Below are positions 7,209 through 44,199 of a stretch of DNA of 45,690 bases, in pieces. How positions within the stretch are numbered: position 1 is the first letter of the stretch; every line of letters starts with the position of its first letter. The stretch is from positions 303,971 through 349,660 of the IMG/VR virus record IMGVR_UViG_3300045996_002337. One strand, written 5' to 3'. This DNA comes from a virus. Below the pieces are notes generated by a model. That model saw only the letters and a program-made list of their open reading frames with translations. It was not told the DNA's origin and ran no database searches. The position numbers were made by a program, and so were the translations under genes.

Positions 7209-7235
7209 CAGAAGTTCCCTGTTATTTTCAGTGTG

Positions 7236-7271: not shown

Positions 7272-7272
7272 T

Positions 7273-10464: not shown

Positions 10465-10488
10465 TTTTATCCTTCAGGTATGGTAACG

Positions 10489-20228: not shown

Positions 20229-20394
20229 TGCCCATACGTTCAATTCCGGACTAGCACCGGCCATTGACTAAAACCGGCTTCAAAATCTGAAGAAAGATAA
20301 GCGGTATCAATCTGCCAGTGCGAATTTCATCACGATCTGCGACTAGCTGGAAACAGGTGGAATCGCACCATGCGGGCACCCCAACGCTAGGTCC
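20229..20394 (-). other. Non-coding interval with inverted repeats; possible structured RNA
   Basis: About 165 bases without a convincing open frame. On the minus strand, CTAGC at 20386-20390 pairs with GCTAG at 20343-20347, extended by TGG/CCA, and encloses a GGTG/CACC hairpin (20356-20369). A second segment ATGGCC (20259-20264) could pair with GGCCAT of the endolysin hairpin's 5' arm and so compete with the start-codon hairpin. No tRNA cloverleaf fits on either strand. Function unknown; it may be a 5' regulatory leader for the endolysin gene or a small RNA. Confidence 0.35.
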
Positions 20395-28714: not shown

Positions 28715-28746
28715 AACCTGATTATAACCCCTTGGTGGCAAGCGTG

Positions 28747-28878
28747 TTAAATTTTTGCCAAGAAAATGGTAAGTGAGACACCAATGGTAACTACAAGTGC
28801 CCAAAGAGCGAGCATCAGCCTGAACGCGGGCCAAATAGTTCGCTCACTTTGATATGGTAAGGAGTACGTCTGCCTCAT
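28747..28878 (-). CDS. Small single-span membrane protein, 43 residues
   Basis: A short frame, MRQTYSLPYQSERTIWPAFR then a membrane helix (LMLALWALVVTIGVSLTIFLA) ending in KI. The ATG overlaps the stop of the preceding gene (ATGA) and GGAGAAGG lies just upstream, so it is very likely translated. The positive N-terminus suggests N-in topology. Function unknown; size and shape would suit a small lysis or superinfection-exclusion protein, but nothing decides this. Confidence 0.6.
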   Translation of the reverse strand: MRQTYSLPYQSERTIWPAFRLMLALWALVVTIGVSLTIFLAKI

Positions 28879-29129
28879 TCCTTCTCCGGCGGATAAGGCC
28901 ATTGCCAGATGGAATCACTGGTCGTTTGAGGTGGTTCAGGCAGGTTGGTGTGCGTCCCCTTCTTTTTGTCAAGCGAAATGACAGGCAACCCGAAAGGACC
29001 CGTATCGCCATCGATCGTGAAATATGTTCCGTCTTCACAGAGAATTTCCACCTCGTTGATCGCATTGGTGCGAACATCTTTGATGGTCTTGCCCTTCAAC
29101 TTCTTAAAGCCGCGCGTTTTATCAGTCAT
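28875..29129 (-). CDS. Hypothetical protein, 84 residues
   Basis: A small beta-rich basic/acidic protein (FKKLKGKTIKDVRTNAINEVEILCEDGTYFTIDGD) ending in a Pro-rich tail (TNLPEPPQTTSDSIWQWPYPPEKE). GAGGA lies seven bases before the ATG. Its start touches the preceding stop (TGATG). The N-terminal strands resemble small SH3-like or DUF phage proteins, with no specific match. Confidence 0.6.
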   Translation of the reverse strand: MTDKTRGFKKLKGKTIKDVRTNAINEVEILCEDGTYFTIDGDTGPFGLPVISLDKKKGTHTNLPEPPQTTSDSIWQWPYPPEKE

Positions 29130-29473
29130 CAGTCGATCCTCGTTTTGGCTTCCGCCTTCAGACCATATTTACGGAGTTCTGCAGCGAACGCCTCGGCACC
29201 TGCAGCCTTCACCTCCATGTTCTGCGTACTGTGAGCAGATGGGTTGTAGATGTGCCAGCCGCCGTAGTAGGAGTCGAGTCGCCCCAAACCGATTTCCTTC
29301 ATCACCGTGATCCACAGACCACGAGCCGGCTTGATGTTGACCCACGCGAAGCCACACGGGTATTGATTGTCGCCGTGTTGCTCAACATAGGCCCGTGCGT
29401 GGCGCGCAGCAACTTCTTGGGCTTCTTGAAGCGCCTTGAGAATGAAGGCGCGGTCATACTTTTGTTTTGTCAT
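29129..29473 (-). CDS. Hypothetical protein, 114 residues
   Basis: Starts at the ATG at 29473 (MTKQKYDRAFILKALQEAQEVAARHARAYVEQHG) with ACGGAG upstream, overlapping the next upstream gene as ATGA. An N-terminal helix is followed by an aromatic strand-rich part (YPCGFAWVNIKPARGLWITVMKE, then YYGGWHIYNPS). The C-terminus is helical (AAGAEAFAAELRKYGLKAEA). It looks like a conserved small phage protein of unknown function. Confidence 0.6.
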   Translation of the reverse strand: MTKQKYDRAFILKALQEAQEVAARHARAYVEQHGDNQYPCGFAWVNIKPARGLWITVMKEIGLGRLDSYYGGWHIYNPSAHSTQNMEVKAAGAEAFAAELRKYGLKAEAKTRID

Positions 29474-30053: not shown

Positions 30054-30545
30054 TCAGAAGTGCGGGTTGCGTTCGTCAACGATGCCCTTGATCAGAGACC
30101 AGGTTCCACCGACCATCTTCCAACCAGAGGTCTTGCCCTTGCGGTTGAAGGTGCACTTTTGACGGTGGGCGCCATCCGACTTAGAGACATCTTCTGTGTA
30201 GATGCGAAGGCCCTTGGTGATGCGAACGATCTTGCCGCAGGGGTAGTAGTCACCGTTGAAACCGTACGAAACGTCGTCGCCAACCTTCGGGAGTTCCATG
30301 ACGCCGAATTGATCCGAGGTGCCAGAACCGTTGTCGTAGGCGATCCAGGTGACGCCGTAGATTTCAGTGAGTTGAGCGGCGATGTCTTCCGCTTCAGCGA
30401 ACGTCTTGTAGTCCCAGCCGTTTTGCTTGGCTTGATCGTACGTGATGCCAGGAAACTCCTTCATCTTCGGCGTGCCCGTGTAGGGCTGCTCCGGCGCAAC
30501 TGCAACGACCTTGCCTTTGTTGAGGAGAACGTAGGTGCTGGACAT
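30054..30545 (-). CDS. Hypothetical protein, 163 residues
   Basis: A soluble alpha/beta protein: MSSTYVLLNKGKVVAVAPEQPYTGTPKMKEFPGITYDQAKQNGWDY, an acidic helix (FAEAEDIAAQLTEIYGVTW), then a beta-rich half (VGDDVSYGFNGDYYPCGKIVRITKGLRIY). The latter has the look of an SH3-like or Tudor-like barrel. AGGA lies eight bases before the ATG and a host-type promoter candidate lies upstream. No family recognised. Confidence 0.6.
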   Translation of the reverse strand: MSSTYVLLNKGKVVAVAPEQPYTGTPKMKEFPGITYDQAKQNGWDYKTFAEAEDIAAQLTEIYGVTWIAYDNGSGTSDQFGVMELPKVGDDVSYGFNGDYYPCGKIVRITKGLRIYTEDVSKSDGAHRQKCTFNRKGKTSGWKMVGGTWSLIKGIVDERNPHF

Positions 30546-30575
30546 CTGGGATTCCTGTTTGGTTGGTATGATGCT

Positions 30576-30605
30576 ATTATACTCAACCTGCGGATTCTGT
30601 GTAAA
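30576..30605 (-). promoter_or_regulatory. Host sigma70-like promoter candidate (TTTACA - 18 - TATAAT)
   Basis: On the minus strand TTTACA (30600-30605) is 18 bases from TATAAT (30576-30581), about 30 bases before the ATG at 30545. The late box is absent, so this would be an early promoter for the small-gene operon. Confidence 0.4.
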
Positions 30606-30608
30606 GAG

Positions 30609-30869
30609 TTACACCTTACGTGGACCTGCGCCACGATGTTGTTTTGACCATTCGTAGTCGTGGCCGTCGGGGGTCTTGCCATCGGTCACGGCGTCAACAC
30701 CGGGCTTGCCGATATTGTCAGCCAACTGGAGAGAGATGGAGACGTGCTGCTCGCCGAGCTTGCGAAGATCCGCAACGACTTTCATTGCGAGAGTGTACTC
30801 ATCGTCTTTAAAACGCTCGCACCGCGGCTGATGCTCATCCTTTGATAGATAGAAAACAACAATAGACAT
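30609..30869 (-). CDS. Hypothetical protein, 86 residues
   Basis: MSIVVFYLSKDEHQPRCERFKDDEYTLAMKVVADLRKLGEQHVSISLQLADNIGKPGVDAVTDG...; alternating strands and one helix suggest a small alpha/beta fold. The phrase SISLQLADNIGKPGVDAV resembles surface-exposed beta hairpins in other small phage proteins but fixes no function. GAAAGAG lies just upstream of the ATG, and GTGATAAAAT sits at 30888-30897 as a possible -10 element. Confidence 0.55.
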   Translation of the reverse strand: MSIVVFYLSKDEHQPRCERFKDDEYTLAMKVVADLRKLGEQHVSISLQLADNIGKPGVDAVTDGKTPDGHDYEWSKQHRGAGPRKV

Positions 30870-30935
30870 TAAGCTCTTTCTTAGTTAATGAATTTTATCA
30901 CAACCAAGAAAGCGGGTGTTCTATTTTTAGGTTAG

Positions 30936-31685
30936 TTAAGCGTTCAAAAATTGCCGGGTGGGTGGCGTGAAGGCCTCTGTGTAGCGTGCGAGTCCAAACG
31001 TGAAGCGAACATCATCAACGTAGCCAGCAAAGTTGCGCGAGTTTTGCCCGGCGGTGGAACCAACTCCGTTTAGAATTCTGAACTGCTGTGCTGGATAGTC
31101 AGTGGTGTCCGCGGCAGACCCTAAAAGATTTCCGTTGTAAAACGCATAAACGACGCTTGAACTTCTCACTAGAGCCAAATGTGTCCACGTGGTGTTTGGC
31201 GTTATGGCTGAAAGCCCCACTGGAATTTGCGTGGCTCCAGATGCCCCCGCGTAGAAGGCGACTCTACCAATGCCCGTAGTACCTGGGAAGCCACCACTGG
31301 CAACAGAGCTTGAGACAAAGAACCGAATGCCGGTGTCGCTTCCCATCAACTGCATGGAGATGTCATTGGCCGCCGTTTTATAGATCCACATTTCAATGGT
31401 GAAATCGCCGGTGCCAATAGCTGGTAGCTGCGGCGATGAAATGATAAAAACGTTCGAGCTGCCGGTACCCGTACCGGCAGTGATTGAGCTTTTGCCAAAC
31501 TTTTTGACTGATGCGCTAACGGTCGGGGTTCCGCTACGACTAACAGCGACCCCGTACTTAGAGGCATCACCGCCCCGCAACTCAGTTCCAGTGGGCGTGC
31601 CACTGCCTTGCATCAGTAGTCGCACTTTATCGAAGTGTGGATCACGCTCCACCGCAGGAGAAAGTGCTTGAGCGATGTTAAACAT
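30936..31685 (-). CDS. LamG/concanavalin A-like domain virion protein
   Basis: 249 residues. After a short leader (MFNIAQALSPAVERDPHFDKVRLLM) the protein is one LamG-like jelly roll: FGKSSI, GTGDFTIEMWIYK, WTHLALVRSSSVVYAFYNGNLLGS, YVDDVRFTFGLARYTEAFTPPTRQF. These are the standard landmarks of the LamG_3 family in phage structural proteins, which bind glycans or decorate capsids and fibres. The ATG overlaps the preceding fibre-like gene's stop by one base (TAATG). A head-fibre or decoration role is plausible given the terminase-side location. Confidence 0.75.
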   Translation of the reverse strand: MFNIAQALSPAVERDPHFDKVRLLMQGSGTPTGTELRGGDASKYGVAVSRSGTPTVSASVKKFGKSSITAGTGTGSSNVFIISSPQLPAIGTGDFTIEMWIYKTAANDISMQLMGSDTGIRFFVSSSVASGGFPGTTGIGRVAFYAGASGATQIPVGLSAITPNTTWTHLALVRSSSVVYAFYNGNLLGSAADTTDYPAQQFRILNGVGSTAGQNSRNFAGYVDDVRFTFGLARYTEAFTPPTRQFLNA

Positions 31686-33043
31686 TACGCGAAGCCTCTA
31701 GCAAGGGCGCAGATCAAGGCATTAAGCGTCGAGTCATAGTAACAAGAAAGCATGTTGACGCTGTTTGGTCCTGAGCCGACAGCGGGGGTATCACCACCTG
31801 CAAATCGATACATGGTTCCATACGCTAGAGTGCGGCCGCCAGTAGCATCTTGAACAAGCAGTACGTTAATGGTTTGACCATCAATAAGTCCCGTTGGATT
31901 AGCAAGAGTTGCGTTTTCAGTTAGAGATAGGCGGAAGTTATTGGACAGCGTTGCGTCAATCGCCACCGATCCAGCAGAAATTGATAGGGCGACAGGGGCA
32001 ATGACCTGCGCCTTTGTGAAGGTGTTGACGGTGTTTGTGCTTACACTTTGGCCAGAAGATGTTTGTTGCCAGGTAGGCGGCGCATTACCATTTGACGTAA
32101 GCACCCAACCAACTTGCCCGTACCCGCTTGCCGTGGCGCCGGTTCCACCAAATGCGAGGCCGCCCTGTGGTGTGATCATCAAGCGATCTTCAATGGCGCC
32201 ACCAACACCAGTTTGAATTTTCACAGTTCCACTGTTAGCAATGCCGTTGTTGGCCGACCCACCTGCAGCACCACCACGGATGATCACATCACCGCCGTTT
32301 ACTGGTGTCGCTGCAAATGCCGAGTCTGCTGAGCCGCCGCCCTGGAGAATAAGGTCACCGCCAGCACCGCCCTTGTTATCTGACGAGAAGAAGAGCGTTG
32401 CAGTTCCACCGCGAACTGTTACATCTGGAGCATCAGCATTTGCCGTGCTCTGTGAGCCTGCACCAATTAGAAAGCCGCCACCAGAAGTTGTGCCCAATGT
32501 GAGTGTAGTAGAACCGTTGAACGTGAGGCCACCGCTTCCAGCAAAGATGCCGGCGTTATTGTACTGCACCTGACCAGTTGAGCCGGCGGGGGTTGTCGCT
32601 GGTGTAGAAGTGGTGGCAAGCTCTTGCCAGTTACCTAACGTTCCTGCACCTTCTGCGCGCAGAATAAATGTCTTGCTGAGGTCGGTGCGTACCGCGACAT
32701 CACCTACTTCTGCTGTCAGCGCTAGCATCGCAGCTTGTGATCCAACCACAAACGTATCAGTGATGGCAACAGCTGGCAGCTGCGACGTAAGCAGCTTACT
32801 TGTCCCATCCAACGCTGCCGGTGTGTAGCCTAAGGCGGTAATGATGTCAGCACTGGTAATGCCGCCGCCGGCACCAACCACGCCCCAATCGGTGCCGGTA
32901 AACACGTGAAGCGCGGGGGTGGGCGTCGTTAGAAAGAAGAGCTCGCCAGTGTTGTTGCCAACTGTTGGCAGGGCCGTACCGCTAGCAACCGTGAAATTCA
33001 CGGCTGACGAGGCGCCCATAAGTTCAATACCGTCCAAAAGCAT
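31685..33043 (-). CDS. Fibre-like virion protein, 452 residues
   Basis: The N-terminal part (MLLDGIELMGASSAVNF...) includes GELFFLTTPTPALHVFTGTDW and ITSADIITALGYTPAAL, phrases typical of phage head- or short-tail-fibre proteins, and DTFVVGSQAAMLALTAEVGDVAVRTD. Residues about 170-330 are Gly-rich, beta-helix-like (GGDLILQGGGSADSAF, GGDVIIRGGAAGGS). The C-terminus (NATLANPTGLIDGQTINVLLVQDATGGRTLAYG) is a widespread phage fibre tip or chaperone-like segment. A late box lies 25-32 bases upstream and AAAGGA precedes the ATG. Adhesin or capsid fibre. Confidence 0.65.
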   Translation of the reverse strand: MLLDGIELMGASSAVNFTVASGTALPTVGNNTGELFFLTTPTPALHVFTGTDWGVVGAGGGITSADIITALGYTPAALDGTSKLLTSQLPAVAITDTFVVGSQAAMLALTAEVGDVAVRTDLSKTFILRAEGAGTLGNWQELATTSTPATTPAGSTGQVQYNNAGIFAGSGGLTFNGSTTLTLGTTSGGGFLIGAGSQSTANADAPDVTVRGGTATLFFSSDNKGGAGGDLILQGGGSADSAFAATPVNGGDVIIRGGAAGGSANNGIANSGTVKIQTGVGGAIEDRLMITPQGGLAFGGTGATASGYGQVGWVLTSNGNAPPTWQQTSSGQSVSTNTVNTFTKAQVIAPVALSISAGSVAIDATLSNNFRLSLTENATLANPTGLIDGQTINVLLVQDATGGRTLAYGTMYRFAGGDTPAVGSGPNSVNMLSCYYDSTLNALICALARGFA

Positions 33044-33084: not shown

Positions 33085-34617
33085 TCACATCATGAACGGT
33101 ACCGGCTCGTCTCCATACTGGTCACCCTCATTGGGTGCCACGTACTCGTTCACCTGCTTAAACGCGGTGTCGTTGTACTCAGAGAGACGCTTGAGCAAAC
33201 GAATGACAATGATGGTTGCCATCACGCAGTCAGAAGTTGCTCCCGGCTTGTGATCATAAGAACCACCTCGAGCCACAAAGTTCTTCAGTTCGTCGAGTAA
33301 GACCGTTGATTTGATCTGAAGGCCACCATTGATTTTTTCAACCAGTGATTTGAGCTGCAAGCAGGCAAGCACCTTTGTTTTACCTGACGTGAAGACTCCA
33401 AGCTTATCTGAAGATGGTTGATCACAATAGAGCTCGGCGTGTTCAGGTTGCTTTTCATCATTTTGGTAGAGTGCTGACATGGCCTCACCAATACCGTTTC
33501 GCTCGAATGTCCAAAGAACTTCGGCGCGTCCTCTACCAATTGGCGCCGAAAGTTTCTCGAGTATCCACTTTAGCTTTGCGTAGAGCAGGGGGATGTTGAT
33601 ATCGTTTGATCGCCACTCAGCCACCTGCTCGAGTGATGGAAACTCAAAGACCTCAATGACTGAGAAGTCATTGCCTGAGCCTGTGGCCGGGTCAACCCCA
33701 ACCAGATATGTACGGCCTTGACCACCTAGCTCTTCTTCAGGTTTCCAAAACTTAAACCCGAGGTCCTCATAGAGATGATGCGTGGGCGCAATTTGGATCA
33801 GCTTCATTGAGTTGATCAGCAACGCATCTGATGATAAGAATTCGCACCCGACTTCTTGCCGCGTAGCAAGGGGCCCGATCTGTCCAACCATGTCATCCCA
33901 GTACTGATCATCCCGCTCGGGGTGTTCTTTCCAGTGCACTTGAAATGGCTTGTACACATTTGTGCCAGACATTGCTCCACGCCACAACGAGGCAAAGAGA
34001 TCCGTGTCTCCGTTTGGGGTTGAGGAAATGATAGCAGAACCACCAGTAGACAGGGTAGGCGACAGCGAGTTCCACATCTGCTGCTGAATGCGTGGGTTAA
34101 TAAACGCCAACTCGTCAAGATACAGCTTCGAGATGGACAGGCCTCGACCAGTCTTGTCAGTCGTTGCTTCACAAACAACTCGTGATCCGTTGTCAAGGTC
34201 AATCTTGTGCATGTTGTAGTACTTCAAACCTGGCTTGATCCAGCTTGGAAGTTCTTCATACGCGAGCTTAACGCGACCGGCAATTTCAAGGGCGTGAGAA
34301 CCGTTCTTCGAGGCGATCAGCACGGTGGCATCGTCGTTGAAGAGCGCGTACCAAAGCAGGTACATGGCAGCCGTGACCGTCTTACCGCACTGACGCGGTT
34401 GCAGCGTGATCGTAAAACGGTTGGAGTGAATGTGACGAACGAACCGTTCCTGGTAGTCAAACATGTTGAAGGGAACGATACCGCGGGTTGGGTGGTTCAC
34501 CTTCACATAGGTTCGAATGAAGTACACTGGATCCCGCTTGCAACGCGCAAGCTCTTGGATCATGAACGGCGTATACTCGTCTGTTGCGTACGCCTTCTTA
34601 AGCTGCGGGTTCTTCAT
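33085..34617 (-). CDS. 17: Terminase large subunit (gp17-like)
   Basis: 510 residues. The ATPase domain has Walker A QPRQCGKT (Lys79), Walker B LYLDE (Asp168, Glu169) and the coupling motif ISSTPNG. The nuclease domain has VGVDPATGSGNDFS (Asp309, Asp317), TFERNG (Glu372) and TSDCVMA (Asp463), matching the RNase H-like triad of T4 gp17. It packages DNA into proheads and cuts the concatemer. It is shorter than T4 gp17 (610). Its start overlaps the stop of the pseudo-terminase gene (ATGA), so the two proteins are likely made in a coupled way. Confidence 0.95.
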   Translation of the reverse strand: MKNPQLKKAYATDEYTPFMIQELARCKRDPVYFIRTYVKVNHPTRGIVPFNMFDYQERFVRHIHSNRFTITLQPRQCGKTVTAAMYLLWYALFNDDATVLIASKNGSHALEIAGRVKLAYEELPSWIKPGLKYYNMHKIDLDNGSRVVCEATTDKTGRGLSISKLYLDELAFINPRIQQQMWNSLSPTLSTGGSAIISSTPNGDTDLFASLWRGAMSGTNVYKPFQVHWKEHPERDDQYWDDMVGQIGPLATRQEVGCEFLSSDALLINSMKLIQIAPTHHLYEDLGFKFWKPEEELGGQGRTYLVGVDPATGSGNDFSVIEVFEFPSLEQVAEWRSNDINIPLLYAKLKWILEKLSAPIGRGRAEVLWTFERNGIGEAMSALYQNDEKQPEHAELYCDQPSSDKLGVFTSGKTKVLACLQLKSLVEKINGGLQIKSTVLLDELKNFVARGGSYDHKPGATSDCVMATIIVIRLLKRLSEYNDTAFKQVNEYVAPNEGDQYGDEPVPFMM

Positions 34618-35396
34618 AGAAATTCACACTGATATTGTTCGCGCCACGCGTAGTCGCTAATAGACTGCTTGATTAAATCCTTGACTGCTTGATCCCACTG
34701 CACGTCGGCAAAGTCAACTTTAAATGGCGCAAACAGATTGGCGCCTTTGTTAGCTTCTGTCCAAATCTTTGCAAACATGTTATGCTTCCCATTGGGCGTT
34801 GAGTGGATGGAAAATGCGACACCACATGACGTGAGGACTGGAAGCATCAACATTGCAATATTCTGCTGATCGCTTGGTGACAAAAAAGCAAAATTATCAA
34901 GATGCAACCGTGAAATTGCCATGCCCCTAACGGCCCTCGTGCTGGCAGCCCTAAAGAGAATTCGCGAACTATTTTCAAAGACGATTTCATCTTTAGAGGA
35001 ATAGCGAACCTTAGGCATGAGAAAAGTTGGCAACTTACTTACAGCAAAGTTTGCGATTTCAGAGGCCGAGGCGGCCATTGAATTGGTAACTGTACCAAAA
35101 ACCTCACTTTTACAATCATGGAAGATTGCTTCCCATAGCATAAATGCAATTGCTACGGTCGTCATGCCCACCTGTCTTGGCGCCATTGAAACAACCATAT
35201 CATTGCGCAGCATGTGGCGAATGTAGTCTTCTTGGTATGGGTGCAATGGGAGCGGCATGGCACCCATCTTTGGGTGCAAGTACTGAAAGTAGTTCTTTAT
35301 GAAGTAGATTGGATCTTTGGCACAGCGAAAAATTTCTTCAACTTGCTCACGCGACTGGTCAGGGGCGCGGCCCCGCTTGGAGATAATGGTCTTCAT
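34614..35396 (-). CDS. Catalytically dead terminase ATPase paralogue, no nuclease domain
   Basis: 260 residues collinear with residues ~25-260 of the large terminase beside it (DPIYFIKNYFQYLHPKMG, YQEDYIRHMLRND, PRQVGMTTVA, ISRLHLDNFAF, HSTPNG, REQYQCEFL). It stops exactly where the nuclease domain would begin. The Walker A lysine is Met78 (QVGMTT against QCGKT) and the Walker B glutamate is Asn168 (LDN against LDE), so it should not hydrolyse ATP. The frame is intact and overlaps both neighbours by ATGA, so it is a kept gene rather than debris. A regulatory or structural part in the packaging motor is inferred. Confidence 0.85.
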   Translation of the reverse strand: MKTIISKRGRAPDQSREQVEEIFRCAKDPIYFIKNYFQYLHPKMGAMPLPLHPYQEDYIRHMLRNDMVVSMAPRQVGMTTVAIAFMLWEAIFHDCKSEVFGTVTNSMAASASEIANFAVSKLPTFLMPKVRYSSKDEIVFENSSRILFRAASTRAVRGMAISRLHLDNFAFLSPSDQQNIAMLMLPVLTSCGVAFSIHSTPNGKHNMFAKIWTEANKGANLFAPFKVDFADVQWDQAVKDLIKQSISDYAWREQYQCEFL

Positions 35397-36001: not shown

Positions 36002-36601
36002 TCACCCGGCGATCAAATCTTCGTAATCCACGTCCTTGCGTACAGGAACGATAATAACGGAGTCACACAGCAGCGCGATTTCGGCGCCAGAGGAAATGGC
36101 TTTTGCAAGGTTGTCGTCATGCCAGGTGATCTCGTCAAGCACCTTCGCGGCCACACCTTCAGCCTCTTCCTCTTTACTAACTCGCATCAAGTTCTCAATG
36201 GTGCGGGCCCAACGCATGGTATCATAGATGGCTTCACCGTTGTGTTCACCCCACACAAATTTGAAGTCACCGACCGGAAAGACGTAGTGAAGCTGCCCGT
36301 AAAGACGGGCAGCGTTTTTATCGCCCGTCGCGAACAGGCCTTCAGATCGAACCTTGACGCCAAACTTCTTTTGAAAGTATGTGTCAAGAAGCCCATGAAC
36401 GAACGGAGTAGAATCGCGTGGTTTGCGGTCCTTGCGAACTGTCACCTCACGGGCTCCTTTTACTAGAGAGGCAAAAGGGCCGCCGTAACCACGATAGAGT
36501 GGTCGATTACCTGCTTGCTCAAGAAAAGGGGCGCATTTCTGACGGATATCCAGCTTTGAATCACCCGTGAGAAAATCCTTAAACGTTCGTAGACTCGTCA
36601 C
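36002..36601 (-). CDS. ADP-ribosyltransferase-like protein, 199 residues (GTG start)
   Basis: Starts at GTG (36601), overlapping the small gene's stop as GTGA. The leader TFKDFL is like the capsid-targeting motif of its neighbours but lacks the following Glu. ART-like landmarks are NRPLYRGYGG (Arg37), then SEGLFATGDKNAARLYG (aromatic then Ser/Thr, about 87-102), then HYVFPVGDFKFVWGEHNG, and GAEIALL (Glu174) near the end. The order fits R-[S/T]-E ARTs such as T4 Alt/ModA. Similar motifs recur in the two longer genes at 38.6-40.0 kb. Assigned by motif pattern only. Confidence 0.5.
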   Translation of the reverse strand: MTSLRTFKDFLTGDSKLDIRQKCAPFLEQAGNRPLYRGYGGPFASLVKGAREVTVRKDRKPRDSTPFVHGLLDTYFQKKFGVKVRSEGLFATGDKNAARLYGQLHYVFPVGDFKFVWGEHNGEAIYDTMRWARTIENLMRVSKEEEAEGVAAKVLDEITWHDDNLAKAISSGAEIALLCDSVIIVPVRKDVDYEDLIAG

Positions 36602-36723
36602 TTTTTCTTTGTCCTGTAGCGGGTCTCAAGCACTCCAGCCCATTCAAGGAACTTGTTGCCTAAGTATGTTGTTGCGGCTGCCGCTGCCGCGCCCGCAATG
36701 ATCTTTCCAATGAGGCGCAGCAT
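36598..36723 (-). CDS. Small Ala-rich membrane protein, 41 residues
   Basis: MLRLIGKIIAGAAAAAATTYLGNKFLEWAG followed by a basic tail (VLETRYRTKKK). The Gly/Ala-rich segment could be a membrane helix. The stop overlaps the ART-like gene's GTG (GTGA) and the start is three bases after the 71-residue gene, so the spacing supports a real gene. It resembles its neighbour (AGAAVAGYFATKHVKR), perhaps a pair. Function unknown. Confidence 0.55.
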   Translation of the reverse strand: MLRLIGKIIAGAAAAAATTYLGNKFLEWAGVLETRYRTKKK

Positions 36724-36726
36724 GGC

Positions 36727-36942
36727 TTACTTCTTTTCGTTTTGTTCTTTGAGGAGGGCGTTAATCCTGCCAATCAGGTCATTAACACGAACCTCAGTTG
36801 TATTTTTAAGGCCTTGAGCCATTTGTTTAGCATCGTTCACACGAACATCAAGTGGCTTTTGCTCAAGAGCGCGTTTAACATGCTTGGTTGCAAAGTAACC
36901 AGCAACTGCTGCGCCAGCAGCGATCAACATTTTCTTCATCAT
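36727..36942 (-). CDS. Small membrane-anchored helical protein, 71 residues
   Basis: MMKKMLIAAGAAVAGYFATKHVKRALEQ has a short Ala/Gly-rich hydrophobic segment (about 5-20), then an amphipathic helical part with the repeated phrase VRVND (PLDVRVNDAKQMAQGLKNTTEVRVNDLIGRINALL). The N-terminus could be read as a weak signal or anchor sequence. An excellent TAAGGAG precedes the ATG. It sits in the putative internal-protein cluster; function unknown. Confidence 0.6.
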   Translation of the reverse strand: MMKKMLIAAGAAVAGYFATKHVKRALEQKPLDVRVNDAKQMAQGLKNTTEVRVNDLIGRINALLKEQNEKK

Positions 36943-37003
36943 CGTTTCTCCTTAAGAGAGGTTAACTTCCGCGTTGTGCAGAATGTGCATCTTCGTTATA
37001 TCT

Positions 37004-37789
37004 TCAAGCCTTGAACATCTTATGGTTGCCATCAGGTGCTTCAACGCGAACATATTTAACGTTCTCGTTGGTATAAAAGATGACTACCCATTGTGCATCA
37101 GCGGCTTTAATAAGTTCACGCTTTAGCTGCTTGCCCTTCTGGATTACATTTTCTGCTTCGGTAGTACCAACAAGCTTGAGTCGATCGACTGGCACCTGAA
37201 GAAGTTCAGCAGCTTGCCCCATCGCGCGCGTTTCAGTGGCACTCACCCGCTCTGAAAGCAGGTCGATGCCCACGAGCTGCTTTTGAAACTCAAGTGCAAA
37301 AGCTTCATTCCACATCTTGATGATTGGCTTTGGTGGCGACTGTGTGGTCCAAACTGGAATGCGATACGCAGTGGCACCTGGATTTGAAAGAAGAAGCTTA
37401 ACGTGCTTGGCTGCAATCTTTTGAGCCAATTTGATTCGTTTGGCACCCTCGCCCTTGATGCCTAATTCCTTCATTCGCTTTGCGATATTTGTCGTAATCG
37501 CAAGATTCTTTAGAGTGGAATAGAGCTGGCCAATCCAGTGATTGCCGTTCATACCCATGCCACCTGGCCTGAAAGGACCAGGACGGTACCACCCACTTCC
37601 AACTGGGGGTGGCGTGACAGGTGGAATTTCGGGCACGTCAGTTGGAGTTCCACCATCACCAGGCGATGACTCGCCACCATCGCCACCATCCTCTTCTGAG
37701 ATCAGTAGGAGCGGCAAAAGGGCCTCGTAAACTTCAAGGTTTTTGCCCTCGAGAAGTGGCTTAGCAGTCAGCAGTTCTTGTACCAGCAT
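37004..37789 (-). CDS. Candidate internal head protein with Pro/Gly-rich linker, 261 residues
   Basis: The N-terminus (MLVQELLTAKPLLEGKN) resembles a capsid-targeting peptide with a possible prohead-protease site LLE-G at residue 15. Residues about 32-80 are acidic then Pro/Gly-rich (EEDGGDGGESSPGDGG...PPVTPPPVGSG). The rest is a helical, basic domain (IAKRMKELGIKGEGAKRIKLAQKIAAKHVKLLL) followed by an alpha/beta end (AQWVVIFYTNENVKYVRVEA). Not recognised as an enzyme. A late box lies 24-31 bases upstream. Role as a packaged protein is inferred from position and N-terminus. Confidence 0.5.
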   Translation of the reverse strand: MLVQELLTAKPLLEGKNLEVYEALLPLLLISEEDGGDGGESSPGDGGTPTDVPEIPPVTPPPVGSGWYRPGPFRPGGMGMNGNHWIGQLYSTLKNLAITTNIAKRMKELGIKGEGAKRIKLAQKIAAKHVKLLLSNPGATAYRIPVWTTQSPPKPIIKMWNEAFALEFQKQLVGIDLLSERVSATETRAMGQAAELLQVPVDRLKLVGTTEAENVIQKGKQLKRELIKAADAQWVVIFYTNENVKYVRVEAPDGNHKMFKA

Positions 37790-37812
37790 GTTGTTATCCG
37801 TTGTTAAGGATC

Positions 37813-37820
37813 TATTTACT
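37813..37820 (-). promoter_or_regulatory. T4-type late promoter box (AGTAAATA)
   Basis: 24-31 bases before the ATG of the 261-residue candidate internal protein. Confidence 0.5.
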
Positions 37821-38554
37821 TAGGTTTTGTACCAACCCTCAACCTTTTTGTTGAGGGTTTCCATGTCAAAAATTTCTGGCACGAGATACTTTTCTTTGGT
37901 ATCTTCAAGGTGCTTTAGCATGCGTTGGCCAACAGGGTTCTGCACAGGAGAGTCATAGAAGTTTGTAACTTCCTTGAAGATCTTCAGCATTGCAGCGTCG
38001 TCAAGTTCGCCCGGGTTGTTGTTCACTTCCTTGAAGAACTCAAATTTGCCTTTAAAGTACGCCTTATTGGCCCGAGAAACTTCATGCACCTTGTCAATGA
38101 ACTCAGGGTTCACTTCACGGCCAATCTCTTCACCGCGCTTCTTTGCGCGGGCCTGGGCTACTTCAAGCTCTGTATCAACAAATACCATGCCGACGTCATA
38201 GCCAAGTGATTCAAGAATGCCTGCCCGGCCGAGGATGTTTGATGCATCGTTGGACGTACCATCGACGAACAGCGGCAGCATGCCGTTCAAATAACCAGCG
38301 AGCGCGTTCTTTGTTAGGGGGCGGGTGCGGTCGCGGAAGAACGACTTCCATGTTTCGTCATTCGATGGCATGTCGAATTTCTTTGAAAGAAACTCAGTTG
38401 CCTTATCGGTGTTGACAACCTTCGGTGAAATTGGCCCTTGCAGCTTTGAGACAGTGTATGACTTACCTGCGCCCGGAATGCCAACAACGAAAACCGCTTT
38501 CAAAATGCCGCGGTCGTTGATGCTTTCGTCTAGAAATTGTTTGAACGTAATCAT
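37820..38554 (-). CDS. P-loop kinase (zeta-toxin/AAA_33-like) with capsid-targeting-like N-terminus
   Basis: 244 residues. It starts MITFKQFLDES, like the T4 internal-protein leader, with a possible cleavage site LDE-S. Then FVVGIPGAGKSY (Walker A, about 23-34) and VVNTDKATEFL, with the Asp expected of Pnk/zeta-toxin-type kinases. LFVDGTSNDASNI follows, then a lid segment (VAQARAKKRGEEIGREV). Zeta toxins phosphorylate UDP-GlcNAc; relatives act on RNA ends, sugars or antibiotics. It overlaps the preceding gene by ATGA. As a head-packaged kinase it could act at once on the new host. The substrate cannot be told from sequence. Confidence 0.7.
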   Translation of the reverse strand: MITFKQFLDESINDRGILKAVFVVGIPGAGKSYTVSKLQGPISPKVVNTDKATEFLSKKFDMPSNDETWKSFFRDRTRPLTKNALAGYLNGMLPLFVDGTSNDASNILGRAGILESLGYDVGMVFVDTELEVAQARAKKRGEEIGREVNPEFIDKVHEVSRANKAYFKGKFEFFKEVNNNPGELDDAAMLKIFKEVTNFYDSPVQNPVGQRMLKHLEDTKEKYLVPEIFDMETLNKKVEGWYKT

Positions 38555-39333
38555 GATAGTGGTTTGATAAATTCGCTGAATTGAATTGCAGGCACTGAAA
38601 GGTATTTACCGCTAAACCAGACCTCGTGCTGCTTTCCATCAAACTTGAAAGAGGATGGTGTCTCGAGCGCGACGCCCATACGATCGGGCTGAAAGATGTC
38701 AGGATATTCAGCGTGAAAATCAAGTAACCAGGCACCGCTAATTTTGCCAATGCGCTTGAATTCGGGCTTCGTTTGGTCAATCTTTCCATCGACCTCCAGA
38801 CTGTTGAGAATCTGTTCCCACAGATTCTTCAAGTCTGCTGACAATGTTTGGGGCCCGTCTATGTGGAGAACGTCTTCAGCAATTGTTCGAATGTAATAGG
38901 AAATGGTGCCGAGATTATTTGTTCGGTGTTCCGCAGCTTTAAATGGTCTAATGAAGTTAAAATCTACCTCTTTGGTAATCGCAAGCTTCGTCCCATTCAC
39001 CGGAAAGATGGCATAAGTGTTATCTTCTGTCATTTCTGTGACTTCTGTGTCCATCGTAGTAGAGCAGAAGATTGACCTGTCGCGCTCTGGAAAATCGTTC
39101 CATGCTGGGAACGAGAAGATCCATTTGTGCATGGCGCCATTGCCAGACCGGCTGCGCGGGCGCACGCGCTCTGAAGAGTCGCGAACTCTAATTGGTTCGT
39201 TCTTGCTAGCCGCCCGCCATAATGGGCGTGTCGGGGTCTTCCAATCGGAGCAGTGCTTCTTAAAGAACTCAAGCGCCTCCTCAGCAGAAAGGGTCCGATC
39301 TTCTTCAAGTAAAAATTCCTTGAATGTGATCAC
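38551..39333 (-). CDS. ADP-ribosyltransferase-like protein with capsid-targeting-like N-terminus, 260 residues (GTG start)
   Basis: Starts at GTG (39333), overlapping the previous stop as GTGA. The leader MITFKEFLLEED has the same pattern as its neighbours (possible cleavage after LLE). ART-like landmarks are RPLWRA (Arg40), RSIFCSTT (Ser91-Thr93) and KQHEVWFSGKYLSV (Gln235-x-Glu237), in the order R - STS-like - QxE. Between them lies NTYAIFPVNGTKLAIT, shared with the next gene. The two are clearly related over their whole length, with Arg40 at the same position. Expected activity is ADP-ribosylation of host proteins; unproven. Confidence 0.55.
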   Translation of the reverse strand: MITFKEFLLEEDRTLSAEEALEFFKKHCSDWKTPTRPLWRAASKNEPIRVRDSSERVRPRSRSGNGAMHKWIFSFPAWNDFPERDRSIFCSTTMDTEVTEMTEDNTYAIFPVNGTKLAITKEVDFNFIRPFKAAEHRTNNLGTISYYIRTIAEDVLHIDGPQTLSADLKNLWEQILNSLEVDGKIDQTKPEFKRIGKISGAWLLDFHAEYPDIFQPDRMGVALETPSSFKFDGKQHEVWFSGKYLSVPAIQFSEFIKPLS

Positions 39334-40049
39334 TTCATTTCACCCATAAGTTGCTTCCACACATCCAGACGAAGCGCGACACACTTTCCTGAAACCCAGC
39401 ACTCATGCGGTCCGTTCGGTGGGCGAGCGGTTGTAGTCAAGCGTAGGCGCATGTTTGTCTCAGAGTAGGCTTCTTGCAGTGCCTTTGCGACGTCTAGCCC
39501 GCCAAATATATGAGAGAACAGCTCGCTATTAGGGTCTTCATAGTCTTGCATTGTTTCTTCAATGCCATTGACCATGTCCTCAAATGAGTAGTCTGGAATG
39601 TCAGCATCGCTAAAAATTTCATTCCATGATGAAAGTGATTGACTCGTGCTTTTGCCAATTTTAATTCGAGTGTGCCAAATATCTTCATCAGAAGTCACGC
39701 CAATCTTGACACCATCAAAAGGGATGATCGCGTAAACCTTACCATAGCTTAGTGCGTAGTCTTGATTGTCTGGGCTAGCCATGATGATGGATTTGCTTCG
39801 AGCTGGGTAACCCTGTGATGGCAAAAATTCATCCATCACAACAGTGTAATGGTTCGTTGTGTTTGCAGAGCTGCGCCCACCCAACTCGCCCTGGATAATG
39901 TACGCCTCTTCTTCGGTCTTTCGGGAGCCACGCCAGAATGGACGCCTAATGTCCATGTCCTTGCAGTTCGCCTCAATGAGCTCGCGCGCCTTTTCGACGC
40001 TGATGTCTTGACGGTGTTTGGCTTCTCTTAAGAAGTCTTTGAATCTCAT
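39330..40049 (-). CDS. ADP-ribosyltransferase-like protein with capsid-targeting-like N-terminus, 239 residues
   Basis: Start at ATG 40049, after the preceding stop as TAATATG. The leader MRFKDFLREAKHRQ gives the best prohead-protease-like site in the cluster (LRE-A; T4 IPIII has IAE-A). Landmarks are RPFWRGS (Arg40), ARSKSIIMAS (about 84-92), YGKVYAIIPFDGVKIGVT, DEDIW, and HECWVSGKCVAL (Glu216). It is a paralogue of the next gene downstream and more distantly of the 199-residue protein. The Gln of QxE is Pro here, so substrate or activity may differ. Confidence 0.55.
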   Translation of the reverse strand: MRFKDFLREAKHRQDISVEKARELIEANCKDMDIRRPFWRGSRKTEEEAYIIQGELGGRSSANTTNHYTVVMDEFLPSQGYPARSKSIIMASPDNQDYALSYGKVYAIIPFDGVKIGVTSDEDIWHTRIKIGKSTSQSLSSWNEIFSDADIPDYSFEDMVNGIEETMQDYEDPNSELFSHIFGGLDVAKALQEAYSETNMRLRLTTTARPPNGPHECWVSGKCVALRLDVWKQLMGEMK

Positions 40050-40050
40050 A

Positions 40051-40317
40051 TTAGCTCGGCATGCTATAGCCTGCAGGAAGCAGGCTAGGGTTGTTGTTGG
40101 CAGCTGCGATGGCAACCTTCTTAGCGGCTGTTAGGGTTCTAGTAATTCTTCGGCCCTTTGATTTCATCCGCAGATCAAATCCCCCGCCTTTTGACGTAAG
40201 CTTGGAGATAGACCCAACTTGTTGATCGCCCGATTTGACGAACCACTTGAACTGATCATCAGGATCGGGCACAAATGTGAGCTTGGCCTCGCTCTCAAAC
40301 AATTCTTGAACTCTCAT
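40051..40317 (-). CDS. Small basic protein with capsid-targeting-like N-terminus, 88 residues
   Basis: The leader MRVQELFESEAK resembles that of T4 Alt (ELFDED) and fits a prohead-protease site after LFE or after SE. The remaining ~75 residues are basic and compact (FKWFVKSGDQQVGSISKLTSKGGGFDLRMKSKGRRITRTLTAAKKVAIAAANN), with size and charge like the T4 internal proteins IPI-IPIII. It overlaps the probable small terminase by ATGA. Likely packaged with DNA (inference). Confidence 0.55.
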   Translation of the reverse strand: MRVQELFESEAKLTFVPDPDDQFKWFVKSGDQQVGSISKLTSKGGGFDLRMKSKGRRITRTLTAAKKVAIAAANNNPSLLPAGYSMPS

Positions 40318-40787
40318 TTAACTTCCTTGACTTCAGCGTCAATGCTGATCATTCTCATGATTTCATCGCGGCTGGCAACCACGACGTTGTTTTGCGTTTT
40401 ATTTGCAAATGGTACAAAGGCAGCGTTGCGCTTGCGTTCGCCTTTGACCTTTGCGCGAGTTGCTGCGGCGCTGAGGGCAATGTTCAGGTAGTTAGCTGCC
40501 ACTTCGGCGTTTCTAGCTGCATACCGTGGCTCAATGATCTCGGTGTAGGCGGTCTGCTGGTTGAAGGCGTCGATCGCAGCTTGATAGACGGTATCAATCT
40601 TACCGTCAATCTCCTTGTCTTCCTCATCCTTCTCAGGCGGAGCTTCTTCACCTGACGCCATTTCAGCAAGTTCACCTTCAGTGATCTGCTCGTACTCATC
40701 TTTGTCTTCGTCGAGGCGAGTAGCCGGTGTATTGAACAGCTCGTCAAGAGGATTCGAAAGCATTGGGTTGTTTGATTTGATCGTCAT
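40314..40787 (-). CDS. 16: Probable terminase small subunit (gp16-like)
   Basis: 157 residues (T4 gp16 164). N-terminal NPMLSNPLDELFNTPAT, then an acidic region (PPEKDEEDKEIDGKIDTVYQAAIDAFNQQT). A central helical part (RYAARNAEVAANYLNIALSAAATRAKVKGERKR) and a C-terminal NNVVVASRDEIMRMI end. Order and spacing match the T4-type small terminase: acidic, then R..EV..YL helix, then N.VV..S..E. Small terminases form rings that recognise DNA for packaging. The gene follows gp4 (ATGA overlap) but is ~5.7 kb from the large terminase, the gap being filled by the putative internal-protein cluster. Confidence 0.6.
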   Translation of the reverse strand: MTIKSNNPMLSNPLDELFNTPATRLDEDKDEYEQITEGELAEMASGEEAPPEKDEEDKEIDGKIDTVYQAAIDAFNQQTAYTEIIEPRYAARNAEVAANYLNIALSAAATRAKVKGERKRNAAFVPFANKTQNNVVVASRDEIMRMISIDAEVKEVK

Positions 40788-41245
40788 TTTTTCTTACTCC
40801 TCTTTGGAACTTGTCGGAACATGCTCTTCTCCGTGATTACGCGGAACACGGCTCCTTGAGATTCTGCGAAGATGCTTGCCGCCTTCCACTTCGCTTGGTT
40901 TACGGCATACGCCATTTTGTCTCGCTCTGAGGAACCTGCCGTTAAAACAGATTCCTTCATAGGTTTAACCTCTACGATTTCCTTCTTGAGGTTTCCTAGA
41001 TTGTCACGGTACATGATAATGAAGTCGGGAAAGTACCGTGAAATTTTAGGGCGACCATTTTCATCAATCTTGATTGGGTTGACGTATGGAATGGCAAGCT
41101 CTTCAGAGCCCCAGCGCAGCACCGCGTTGTTCGTATCTAGCCACTGCATGAACCGTAATTCCCAAGATGAACGGAACATTATCTTGTTGACATTGCCAAC
41201 ATACTTCTGGGGGTTCTTGGGAATGAATCTGCCGCCGTGCGCCAT
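40784..41245 (-). CDS. 4: Head completion nuclease (gp4-like)
   Basis: 153 residues (T4 gp4 150) from the ATG at 41245, which has GAGGA five bases upstream. A GTG at 41257 is less likely. Family landmarks: KNPQKYVGNVNKIMFRSSWELRFMQWLD, VLRWGSEELAIPYVNP, RYFPDFIIMYRD, EIVEVKP. The SEE...PDF...EVK pattern is a PD-(D/E)xK-type nuclease core as in TnsA-like enzymes. In T4, gp4 acts in head completion after packaging. It starts one base before the end of the upstream gp54-like gene's spacing region and is coupled to the small terminase by ATGA. Confidence 0.9.
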   Translation of the reverse strand: MAHGGRFIPKNPQKYVGNVNKIMFRSSWELRFMQWLDTNNAVLRWGSEELAIPYVNPIKIDENGRPKISRYFPDFIIMYRDNLGNLKKEIVEVKPMKESVLTAGSSERDKMAYAVNQAKWKAASIFAESQGAVFRVITEKSMFRQVPKRSKKK

Positions 41246-41246
41246 G

Positions 41247-42650
41247 TTAATCCTCACCCCAAGCCGGTTTGGAATCTGGCACCCATGTTACATGTCCCGT
41301 AGAACTTGTGACAAGTTGACCTGTTTCCTCTGCTGCTTCTGCGTGTCGGTTATTTACTACCGGCGGGGCTGATGGAAGATCAGCCGATCGAGTTACGCCA
41401 GAAACTGCGGTTGGACCACCTTCAGCGCTGTCAATGACGGTCGCGCTGTACGCGCGCACGGCCCCTTGATTGACCGCTGTCGACATACCAGAGGCCAGGT
41501 CGCGTGCGGCTGCGCCAATCACACCACCTAAAATGTTTGATGCCTGTGAGCCAATAAGCGAAGCAAAGCGGCCCTTACCTGCAACTGATTGCACGGCGCG
41601 GCTAATTGCGGTAGATGAAATTGACTGTGCCGCCCGGCCCACTTGATTTGTGATGATGTTAGCGAAGGGGCTTCCGCCACCAGCTTGCGTCTGCGCACTT
41701 TGATTTACACTCATGTCAACAGGGGCTCCGCCAACTCCAGGGACCGCGATGCTATAGGCTGGTCCATCCATTGTTGTCATTGCACCGACATCGACAATTT
41801 CCATCCAGTCGTAGTCGAACTGCATGGTCATCAAGGAAACATCAGATGTTTCATGGTTAAGGTCATCAAGATCGAAGGACACAATGCGGGCATTCAAGAA
41901 GTCATAAATGACTTCCTTTGCAGAACCGCCTAATTGTGAACCCGGGTCAACGAACATCTGTTTCACGCGAATGGCGGAGATGACATTACCAACTTGACTG
42001 TCTGTTACCCCACGAATGGCGTTGTCGCCAGCTTTTGGATCATTTGGCGCCGAGAACATCATACCGTTGCCGGTTGAGAGGGTGTTAGGGTCTGGTGGTC
42101 TGGTGGTGCCTTCACGCAGAAGCTGACGTCGGGTAATTGGTGACTGCAGCATCATCAAGGCGCGGAAGAAGTTCAGCACTCGGTTGCCAGTATCATCCAT
42201 GAACGTGATTGTCAATTCGCGGTGGCGAATACGCTTTAGCACCTTCGTGCGAAAGTTGTACATGTTGACGTCGTCTTCATACTCGAAGTCAATCTTGGGA
42301 CGGTCAACTGACTTGACCATGAATGTAAAGTCGTTGGCCTTGGCACCACCGAAGATCGTAGGGAAGGCAGCCACTGCTTCAGGCGTAAAGACAAATTCCA
42401 CCTTGAATAGAAATTTGAGCTTTGGTCTGTAACTTGTTCCGCCTGCTAAAGCGTGTGCATACGAGCTGGCGTAAAAGGAACCATCACCGCGATTAAATGG
42501 TACTTGACCACCGGGTAGGGGCTGAGGTTGACCTAGAGCAGGTCCTAGTACTCCGCGGCTGAATGTTTCAACCGCAGCACCAAATTTGTCTGATGCTTCT
42601 TTTTCAAGAGCGATCTTTGTGCTGTCGAGGAAGGGTTTTAGGTTTGCCAT
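41247..42650 (-). CDS. 54: gp19/gp54-like baseplate-tail tube protein, 467 residues
   Basis: Residues ~75-340 have the T4_gp19 tail-tube fold pattern: RPKLKFLFKVEFVFTPEA, NDFTFMVKSVDRPKIDFEYEDDVNMYNFRTKVLKRIRHRELTITFMDDTGNRVLNFF, IYDFLNARIVSFDLDDLNHETSDVSLMTMQFDYDWMEI. The N-terminal ~70 and C-terminal ~120 residues (Ala/Gly/Ser-rich) are extensions absent from the tube subunit, as expected for the tube initiator gp54 (320 in T4). The main uncertainty is which gp19-fold baseplate protein (gp54 or gp48) it corresponds to. A late box and a hairpin covering its ribosome site lie upstream. Confidence 0.75.
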   Translation of the reverse strand: MANLKPFLDSTKIALEKEASDKFGAAVETFSRGVLGPALGQPQPLPGGQVPFNRGDGSFYASSYAHALAGGTSYRPKLKFLFKVEFVFTPEAVAAFPTIFGGAKANDFTFMVKSVDRPKIDFEYEDDVNMYNFRTKVLKRIRHRELTITFMDDTGNRVLNFFRALMMLQSPITRRQLLREGTTRPPDPNTLSTGNGMMFSAPNDPKAGDNAIRGVTDSQVGNVISAIRVKQMFVDPGSQLGGSAKEVIYDFLNARIVSFDLDDLNHETSDVSLMTMQFDYDWMEIVDVGAMTTMDGPAYSIAVPGVGGAPVDMSVNQSAQTQAGGGSPFANIITNQVGRAAQSISSTAISRAVQSVAGKGRFASLIGSQASNILGGVIGAAARDLASGMSTAVNQGAVRAYSATVIDSAEGGPTAVSGVTRSADLPSAPPVVNNRHAEAAEETGQLVTSSTGHVTWVPDSKPAWGED

Positions 42651-42652
42651 GA

Positions 42653-42688
42653 AGGCCCCACAATGCTGATGCTTTATTTATGGGACCT
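42653..42688 (-). promoter_or_regulatory. Late promoter box (CATAAATA, 42675-42682) in a hairpin with the gp54-like ribosome site
   Basis: AGGTCCCAT (42680-42688) can pair with GTGGGGCCT (42653-42661), nine pairs including two G-U, just before the ATG at 42650. The 5' arm overlaps the promoter box, so late transcripts would lack it. Same design as at the endolysin and hydrolase genes. Confidence 0.55.
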
Positions 42689-42741: not shown

Positions 42742-44199
42742 TCAGTACGCGAAGAGGCGAACTTGATATGCGTTGATGTCAGCATATGTTGTACCACCCC
42801 ATGACGAGGTGAACGCGACACGGGTGCCATCACGGCTGATTGAGCCAACTGGTGAGAAGAAGTAGTAATCTTCTTCAGGGAAGGCGGTGCGGTGCCAAGC
42901 GACGTTGAGGATTCGGCCATTCGGCTTCAGTTCAACGAGAGTCAGCTTGCGGTCCATCCAACGGGTGGTTTTTCCTGGTGTTTCGTGCTGAGCACTGACA
43001 AGGATCCAACCTGGCTTGTTGAAGGACTTTCCAGAGAAGTGGAATGCACGACCAGATCCGTCACCGAAGTAGGTTGCCGAGATCTTTGTACGAACGCCAG
43101 TTTCAATGTTCGTGAAGAACAGATCACCTTCGTTTGCTGCGTAGTCGACTGAAACGTAAACGTCTTGACCTTCTGCGTTAAGCGCGACGTCACTGTGTTG
43201 CGAACCATTCAGAAGCTTACGGCTAGACGTGAAATCACGTGTCCATGCAGCTGTGCCGTTGGTTGCGTCTTCATGGCTGGTAACGCAGTACTTGCCTGAA
43301 GGCGACATGCTCACGTGGTCAGGACGATTGCCATTGGTGTTTTTGTAACCAAGAATGGTGTTGGTCTGCATGTCCCAAGTGAATACGCCGAGTGAGTTCC
43401 AATTTGCATCGTCTACCATGAAGCACCAGTAACGGCCATCTGCAGATGGCGAACCTTCAGAACGGGTCCATGCAGCGTTTGCAGTTGGCCAACGTGCTTT
43501 AACACGAGCAGCCAAATCACCAACTACGCGTGAAACGCCAGTTGCAACGTTCAATTCATGGACGCGCATGCCGATACCAGTGATTGGTAGGTAGTAGATG
43601 AGATCTGGATCTGTTGGATGCCATTGTGGCTCAGCATCACCAGCGAGACCGGGCAGGCGCTTCTCATATGCGAGGGTGGTCGCATTGTAGGTGTGCCAGC
43701 TGCCGTCAAGGGCTGAGATTAGTTGACGCGTGTTGTTGGCGTTGAAAGCTTGACGACGTGAGTAGTCATTGCGCGCAAAGCCACTTGGTGGCTCGGAGCG
43801 GTCTGTCACACGATAAACCGGGTTACCGAATGTTGGATCTGGTGTCGCGACACCTTTTGCCGGCCGCGCTGTCGTTGGTGACGTAGCAGTCGAAGGTCCA
43901 ATTACCCAGCTTCCCGAGGGTGTTGGAGTTGGAGTTGGTGTTGGAGTTGGTGTCGGGGTTGGTGTCGGGGTTGGTGTCACTTCAGGGGCGACAACACGGA
44001 GTTTGCGGACGCAACCATATTCCGTTGTACCACCAGCTTTAGTGCCGAGACCTTTCGCGCCAGCTTCACAATATGCCAAGGTGGTGTATTCCTTGAAAAG
44101 CGTGCCATCTGGGAGGGTAAGTTCGTAAAATGGTGTTACGGTTTGGGCTTGAGCAGCCGCCGCAACCACCATCGATAGACCGATAATGATTTTCTTCAT
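42742..44199 (-). CDS. Secreted beta-propeller protein (signal peptide, Thr-Pro linker), paralogue of the fibre propeller
   Basis: 485 residues. An Sec signal peptide (MKKIIIGLSMVVAAAAQAQ; basic, hydrophobic, AxA-type cleavage) is followed by a small Cys-containing domain (YCEAGAKG.., YGCVRK). A (Thr-Pro)n linker (about 76-94) follows. From about 117 the propeller matches the virion fibres: PDPTFGNPVYRVTD, NDYSRRQAFNANN, WHPTDPDLIYYLP, EGSPSADGRYWC, HSDVALNAEGQDVYVSVDY, AFHFSGKSFNKPGWILVS. No fibre domains are attached. It has its own late box and is flanked by terminators, so it is a stand-alone unit. The protein should reach the host periplasm or medium. Some motifs recall oligogalacturonate lyase-like propellers, but activity is unproven. 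Confidence 0.8.
   Translation of the reverse strand: MKKIIIGLSMVVAAAAQAQTVTPFYELTLPDGTLFKEYTTLAYCEAGAKGLGTKAGGTTEYGCVRKLRVVAPEVTPTPTPTPTPTPTPTPTPTPSGSWVIGPSTATSPTTARPAKGVATPDPTFGNPVYRVTDRSEPPSGFARNDYSRRQAFNANNTRQLISALDGSWHTYNATTLAYEKRLPGLAGDAEPQWHPTDPDLIYYLPITGIGMRVHELNVATGVSRVVGDLAARVKARWPTANAAWTRSEGSPSADGRYWCFMVDDANWNSLGVFTWDMQTNTILGYKNTNGNRPDHVSMSPSGKYCVTSHEDATNGTAAWTRDFTSSRKLLNGSQHSDVALNAEGQDVYVSVDYAANEGDLFFTNIETGVRTKISATYFGDGSGRAFHFSGKSFNKPGWILVSAQHETPGKTTRWMDRKLTLVELKPNGRILNVAWHRTAFPEEDYYFFSPVGSISRDGTRVAFTSSWGGTTYADINAYQVRLFAY
43921..43980 (-). repeat. Thr-Pro-encoding 6/12-bp DNA repeat
   Basis: About ten tandem Thr-Pro codon pairs form a flexible linker between the N-terminal Cys domain and the propeller. 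The short-period repeat can change copy number by slippage. Confidence 0.85.

Follow-up and report, generated by a model that had tools for sequence, protein, structure and literature searches.

A putative T4-type capsid-targeting leader on a modular set of probably injected proteins in a T4-like jumbo phage

The closest described systems are the internal proteins (IPs) of bacteriophage T4 and its head-packaged ADP-ribosyltransferase (ART) Alt. In the T4 record, IpI starts with MKTFKEF..ITEA, IpII and IpIII with MKTYQEFIAEA and Alt with MELITELFDED, and (L/I)xE is the cut site of the T4 prohead protease gp21. The start of T4 57B, MMEFKDFSTGLYVAA, is faintly leader-like. The stretch of DNA analyzed here, referred to as the window, comprises 45,690 nucleotides at the end of the 349,660-bp record of a T4-like jumbo phage (IMG/VR record IMGVR_UViG_3300045996_002337, bases 303971-349660), the remainder of which was read as 20-kb stretches. 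In this window, a run of genes shares an N-terminal leader of the same layout as the T4 proteins, a resemblance that had been proposed in an earlier, sequence-only reading and that the T4 record bears out. This common N-terminus is very probably a capsid-targeting tag of the T4 type, and the proteins behind it would form a modular arsenal of effectors that are packaged into the head and probably injected. As with the T4 IPs, with their layout M-K-T-(F/Y)-(K/Q)-E-F-(I)-x-E, the leader is accompanied by a gp21-type protease. However, T4 has three small IPs, whereas the jumbo phage has approximately two dozen leader genes, many with larger, enzyme-like bodies and several located in two late clusters.

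Other phages provide partial parallels. The cytidylyltransferase T4-GC190, an enzyme for which no structural role is evident, was detected by mass spectrometry in purified virions of the cyanophage S-SM1 (Sullivan et al., 2010; PMC3037559), and the accounts of GC190 in virions considered here draw no connection to a leader. Its gene, SSM1_190, begins with MKKFSAFLNE|A (the bar marks the predicted cut), and across the 148 kb of S-SM1 examined no other open reading frame (ORF) of at least 60 codons fits a loose leader motif. Like the genes described here, it joins a leader of this kind to an enzyme; unlike them, it is a single gene in the cyanophage stretches examined and not an arsenal. A cytidylyl/NMN-adenylyltransferase-like protein of the jumbo phage (record 46824-47519, plus strand; L004 8824-9519) looks related to the virion-detected T4-GC190; it starts with MEEFIFEA, and the element CATAAATA lies 32 nt upstream.

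In Agrobacterium phage Atu_ph07, 29 proteins encoded by CDS 31-76 were detected by virion mass spectrometry, a count that applies to this range as a whole (PMC6102473). Within this range lie, by gene counting with the primase gp70 as anchor, gp53-gp63, which are paralogues of the YRG family that is also present in the window. Virion support for these genes is at the level of the cluster. The tandem YRG family and a YRG-kinase fusion provide the resemblance to the phage described here, but Atu_ph07 has its own leader, M(K/R)W(E/H/N)QL(T/N)E. This fusion, gp53 (L019 9485-11821, minus strand), is a protein of ~780 aa that combines a YRG domain, a Zeta-type kinase and two small domains. It contains the internal leader-like stretches VTEGVND, NLTELFDTE and NLNELFDTS, those such as NLTELFDTE resembling Alt-type leaders, and this sequence arrangement suggests a possible polyprotein for the prohead protease. 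In gp63 (L019 19505-20593, minus strand), a GNAT-like domain and a YRG domain are separated by ITE|T. Lastly, the polyvalent proteins and MuF-fused head effectors of jumbo phages described by Iyer, Aravind and co-workers are head-packaged enzymes, including ARTs, that have been proposed to be injected (PMC9503650, PMC7824862). In those systems large or portal-associated proteins carry the domains as fusions, whereas here separate proteins bear a short, probably cleavable common tag. No common leader was present among the RaK2 N-termini examined, and no description of a shared cleavable leader on head-packaged arsenals was found in the literature searched, which left preprints and most subscription papers outside.

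Two types of leader, both of approximately ten residues, are distinguished: type I, M-(I/K/R)-(T/S)-F-K-x-(F/Y)-(L/I)-x-E, and type II, M-(K/R)-(I/L/V)-x-E-L-(L/F)-x-E. The latter resembles the start of T4 Alt. The six N-termini that the sequence-only reading had quoted are each found in place on the minus strand of the window, and the genes are indeed flanked by the small (TerS, a weak match) and large (TerL) terminase subunit genes. The first is an 88-aa basic protein (40051..40317) with the type II leader MRVQELFE|SEA and a predicted cut after LFE, for which Pfam and PHROG searches gave no convincing family. Two YRG-family proteins follow. One (39330..40049) has the leader MRFKDFLRE|A, starts at an internal ATG of the ORF 39330-40115 and matches phrog_12810 (2.1e-22 over profile positions 1-253); the other (38551..39333) has a GTG start, the leader MITFKEFLLE|E and a match to the same profile (3.2e-16). 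Next come a P-loop kinase of the Zeta_toxin/AAA_33 group (37820..38554; PF06414 2.9e-12, AAA_33 4.8e-9) with the leader MITFKQFLDE|S, and a Gly/Pro-rich protein of 261 aa (37004..37789) that starts with MLVQELLTAKPLLEG and has the type II leader MLVQELLTAKPLLE|G. The last gene encodes a third YRG-family protein (36002..36601; phrog_11975 7.2e-28), with a GTG start and the degenerate leader MTSLRTFKDFLTGDS.

The cargo cluster noticed in the sequence-only reading is real, but it is only a part of the whole, as eight further type I leaders occur elsewhere in the record. A scan of all record ORFs revealed a second cluster at record positions 2581-10870, in which seven type I leader genes are interleaved with tail genes; their proteins start with MTHKTFKEFLTEG, MITFKKFLEAE, MITFKKFLSEA, MKTFKQFILES, MITFKQFLSEE, MITFKQYLREE and MITFKQFLGEG. 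A lone type I copy (record 19897-20403) starts with MITFKQYLRED. In addition, there are about a dozen type II-like leaders of the form M(K/R)(I/V/L)xEL(L/F). Genome-wide, 12 ORFs start with the type I motif, compared to 0.5 on average (maximum 2) in 20 codon-shuffled replicates, and the stringent type II motif starts 17 (shuffled mean 1.4, maximum 4). Altogether, the phage appears to have two dozen or so leader-bearing genes, the dozen or so of type II being less certain.

The strongest constraint within the leader falls on the predicted protease site. Among the type I leaders of the record and related loci, Glu is present at position +2 in 76 of 94, giving (L/I)xE with the intervening residue free, while the same five-residue motif inside proteins is followed by this Glu in none of six cases. 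In aligned kinase homologues the leader Glu is invariant (14/14), including those from Pelagibacter and Methylophilales phages with much-altered leaders. The phage encodes its own gp21-type prohead protease (record 30523-31137; phrog_207, 1e-55), and its gp23-like major capsid protein (record 27276-28544; phrog_138, 1.2e-85) carries ..VLAE|TAP at the place expected of a cleavage site, just before the region aligning with mature gp23; we infer that the capsid protein is cleaved at LAE|T. In AlphaFold2 (AF2) models, low confidence is concentrated in the leader: the predicted local distance difference test score (pLDDT) of 39330-40049 is 95, with about 72 for the leader block, and that of 36002-36601 is 86.9, with 55-69 for the first 20 residues.

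Behind this leader, the bodies differ widely. The leader-stripped proteins of the record and related loci form 32 body clusters. A pattern scan of IMG/VR with MITFKQ(F/Y)LxE gave at least 96 matches, and 96 of the 96 matches listed are at ORF starts. Among these listed matches, the complete leader ORFs have a median length of 215 aa, their 82 complete bodies form at least 29 clusters, and Pfam identifies Acb1, which counteracts the cyclic oligonucleotide-based antiphage signaling system (anti-CBASS; 3e-17), nucleotidyltransferase, cytidylyltransferase-like, GNAT, amidoligase and DUF6267 domains. The leader also heads a further GNAT and another kinase of the Zeta type. The expectation that related phages combine the common leader with different bodies is thereby borne out. 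The further statement that unrelated domains share the leader holds in general but less so within the window, where three of the six genes are paralogous, leaving four unrelated bodies. The leader is also specific to viruses in the genomes scanned: in 257 Gb of bacterial and archaeal genomes, MITFKQ(F/Y)LxE had no match, and a looser, Glu-free pattern had 58, all of which lack Glu at this position; 38 of them lie in ORFs shorter than 50 codons.

Acb1 occurs in two settings. At locus L061 (534-1025, plus strand), an Acb1 body stands behind the full type I leader MITFKQYLEE, which makes it a candidate virion-delivered anti-CBASS enzyme. The window itself encodes an Acb1 protein (15447-15875, minus strand; PF23474 1.4e-25), the start of which is uncertain. 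Its N-terminus LLLKEILGTG was considered as a leader and rejected, because a ribosome-site-like AAGGAG falls inside it.

The family of the three YRG genes of the window (36002, 38551, and 39330) has 13 members in the record. Conserved features are the YRG motif, a frequent RSxS, a C-terminal E(V/I)(W/M) and the residues R39, R83, P109 and E215. This order of motifs, compared with the R..S..E order of ARTs, hints at an ART, the label given in the sequence-only reading, but profile and fold searches do not uphold it. Among 45 members scanned, no ART family was found in Pfam or NCBIfam, profile searches of PDB gave no sequence match, and Foldseek comparison of two AF2 models with PDB returned best E-values of 0.08 and 0.34, despite a confident model. 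Alignment with hhalign to T4 Alt, ModA and ModB likewise gave no convincing match; there is no detectable homology to Alt, and ModA shares only a nine-residue stretch with PLWRG. Significant matches in BFVD are mainly uncharacterized phage proteins, including relatives in Atu_ph07. The family is therefore treated here as an effector family of no assigned structure class. The kinase label, on the other hand, stands: the protein encoded at 37820-38554 scores 46.9 bits with the Zeta_toxin profile (cut-off 22.3), and its Walker A motif, GxPGxGK, is conserved.

The capsid-targeting interpretation is consistent with the Glu conservation, the unrelated bodies, the protease, the absence from cellular genomes and the one published virion detection, in S-SM1. 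Judged from T4, the leader would dock unrelated proteins onto the prohead core, where the gp21-type protease would cut after (L/I)xE and leave the bodies free inside the head. The freed bodies would then leave the head together with the DNA and enter the next host. The genes would travel in late structural operons, from 42650 to 33085 of the window beside gp4, TerS and TerL, and among tail genes at record 2581-10870. The arsenal would be swappable: this phage has 13 YRG paralogues, a kinase of the Zeta type and small proteins, whereas related viruses have other enzymes, namely nucleotidyltransferases, GNATs and anti-CBASS Acb1. Going by these types of cargo, a role in immediate host take-over or counter-defense, before phage gene expression, is likely.

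Alternatively, the leader might package structural or scaffold-type core proteins that aid assembly or condense the genome and do not reach the host as effectors. The leader genes do sit among head and tail genes, and similar N-termini are present on the scaffold and on further short proteins encoded near the portal. However, many bodies are enzymes without an obvious assembly role, such as the kinase, the GNAT, the nucleotidyltransferases and Acb1, and cargo sets vary between relatives, which makes this explanation unlikely. Considerably less probable still is that the leader was merely inherited as part of a folded domain, through repeated duplication of a single gene family. A single family does account for three of the six genes in the window and for 13 in the record, and leader type is clustered on the YRG tree (8 changes compared to 20.5 when shuffled). 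Nevertheless, at least eight changes of leader type are needed on that tree, three of them forced by well-supported branches, and body cluster #3, to which the protein of 37004..37789 belongs, combines three type II with two type I leaders among its five members, so that one body type bears differing leaders. In addition, the leader is found on about 30 unrelated clusters, and a single origin is contradicted by the bodies of the kinase, of Acb1, of the GNAT and of cluster #3; alignments of the leader-bearing Acb1 query with its best homologues from other phages mostly begin only at residue ~20 of the query, and the leader is the low-confidence part of the AF2 models. That the start is conserved at the level of the DNA, as a recombination seam or translation-initiation cassette serving gene shuffling or translation, is hardly credible: although the 4-nt gene overlaps and the cassette arrangement would suit it, synonymous codons differ between leaders while the peptide stays constant, and therefore the peptide and not the DNA is conserved, with the Glu approximately ten residues in kept and the residue preceding it free.

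Several observations weigh against the capsid-targeting tag or limit its reach. The leader of 36002-36601 lacks the Glu. For type II, a looser form of the motif starts 60 real compared to 35 shuffled ORFs, and individual assignments are uncertain because these leaders are short and degenerate. Some of the 32 body clusters are doubtful ORFs, and the window bodies represent fewer independent families than the sequence-only reading had supposed. A gp21-type protease is present in 14 of 19 leader-bearing records and in 11 of 11 of at least 130 kb, counts whose weight depends on the background among large viral contigs. ATAAATA is only weakly enriched upstream of leader ORFs in IMG/VR contigs, among the matches listed (17/95 compared to 91/842, p = 0.06). 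Finally, core docking, cleavage, packaging, retention with the DNA and delivery would follow by analogy with T4, and a head protein could be a structural core protein instead of an injected effector.

The surroundings of the cargo genes would fit late expression. A T4-type late-promoter-like element, CATAAATA (42675..42682, minus strand), precedes 41247-42650 by 32 nt. It stands at the head of a minus-strand run that leads from a tail gene through gp4, TerS and the cargo genes to TerL and in which several neighboring genes overlap by 4 nt. The window contains six HATAAATA elements compared to 1.5 expected, and none of 100 shuffles reaches six. ATAAATA-type elements and a run of overlapping genes resemble T4 late transcription, and the cargo run may be expressed accordingly late. 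Within this run, a gp4-like head completion/closure protein (40784..41257; phrog_218 4.3e-44) overlaps the putative TerS (40314..40787; phrog_445 E=0.017, and position) by 4 nt, as TerS does the first cargo gene. Downstream lies the gp17-like TerL (33085..34617; 42% in tblastn against XacN1 TerL, 4e-133), adjoined by a second TerL-like ORF (34614-35396); both are on the minus strand. In this tandem pair (33085-35396), the 260-aa ATPase-like copy directly before the full 510-aa TerL has the Walker A Lys replaced by Met (PRQVGMTT, compared to PRQCGKTV in the full TerL). The pair is also present in the loci L024 and L027. The closest TerL relatives, at ~37-42% identity, occur in Xanthomonas phage XacN1, the Stenotrophomonas phages CM1 and RAS14, Atu_ph07 and PA5oct. 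Other structural genes of the record encode the portal (31176-32828; phrog_213, 2e-85), a scaffold-like protein (28569-29450), the tail sheath (635-2485) and a sheath stabilizer (3772-4560). Between late tail genes of the window, 42742-44199 (minus strand) encodes a signal-peptide-like protein that contains a long PT repeat. Elsewhere in the window, 3900-10464 (minus strand) encodes two tandem paralogues of more than 1000 aa each; both contain cadherin-like repeats and probably serve in the tail or in adhesion.

It is conceivable, although the balance tips slightly towards doubt, that T4-like viruses with many different hosts use this short peptide as a general address label to load their heads with swappable counter-defense and take-over enzymes, including Acb1 and the YRG family, and that some phages make these as polyproteins cut at internal leader-like sites. 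If so, the injected effectors of such phages could be recognized by their ten N-terminal residues. It is difficult to determine which phage proteins accompany the DNA into the cell, and the answer is known for few phages. The tag would turn finding them into a sequence search, as it consists of approximately ten residues with a strongly conserved Glu and is virus-specific compared to the cellular genomes scanned. It would flag anti-defense effectors that act in the first minute, from jumbo phages as well as from T4-like marine and other phages, the tagged Acb1 being a striking case, and would supply a ready packaging signal for laboratory use.

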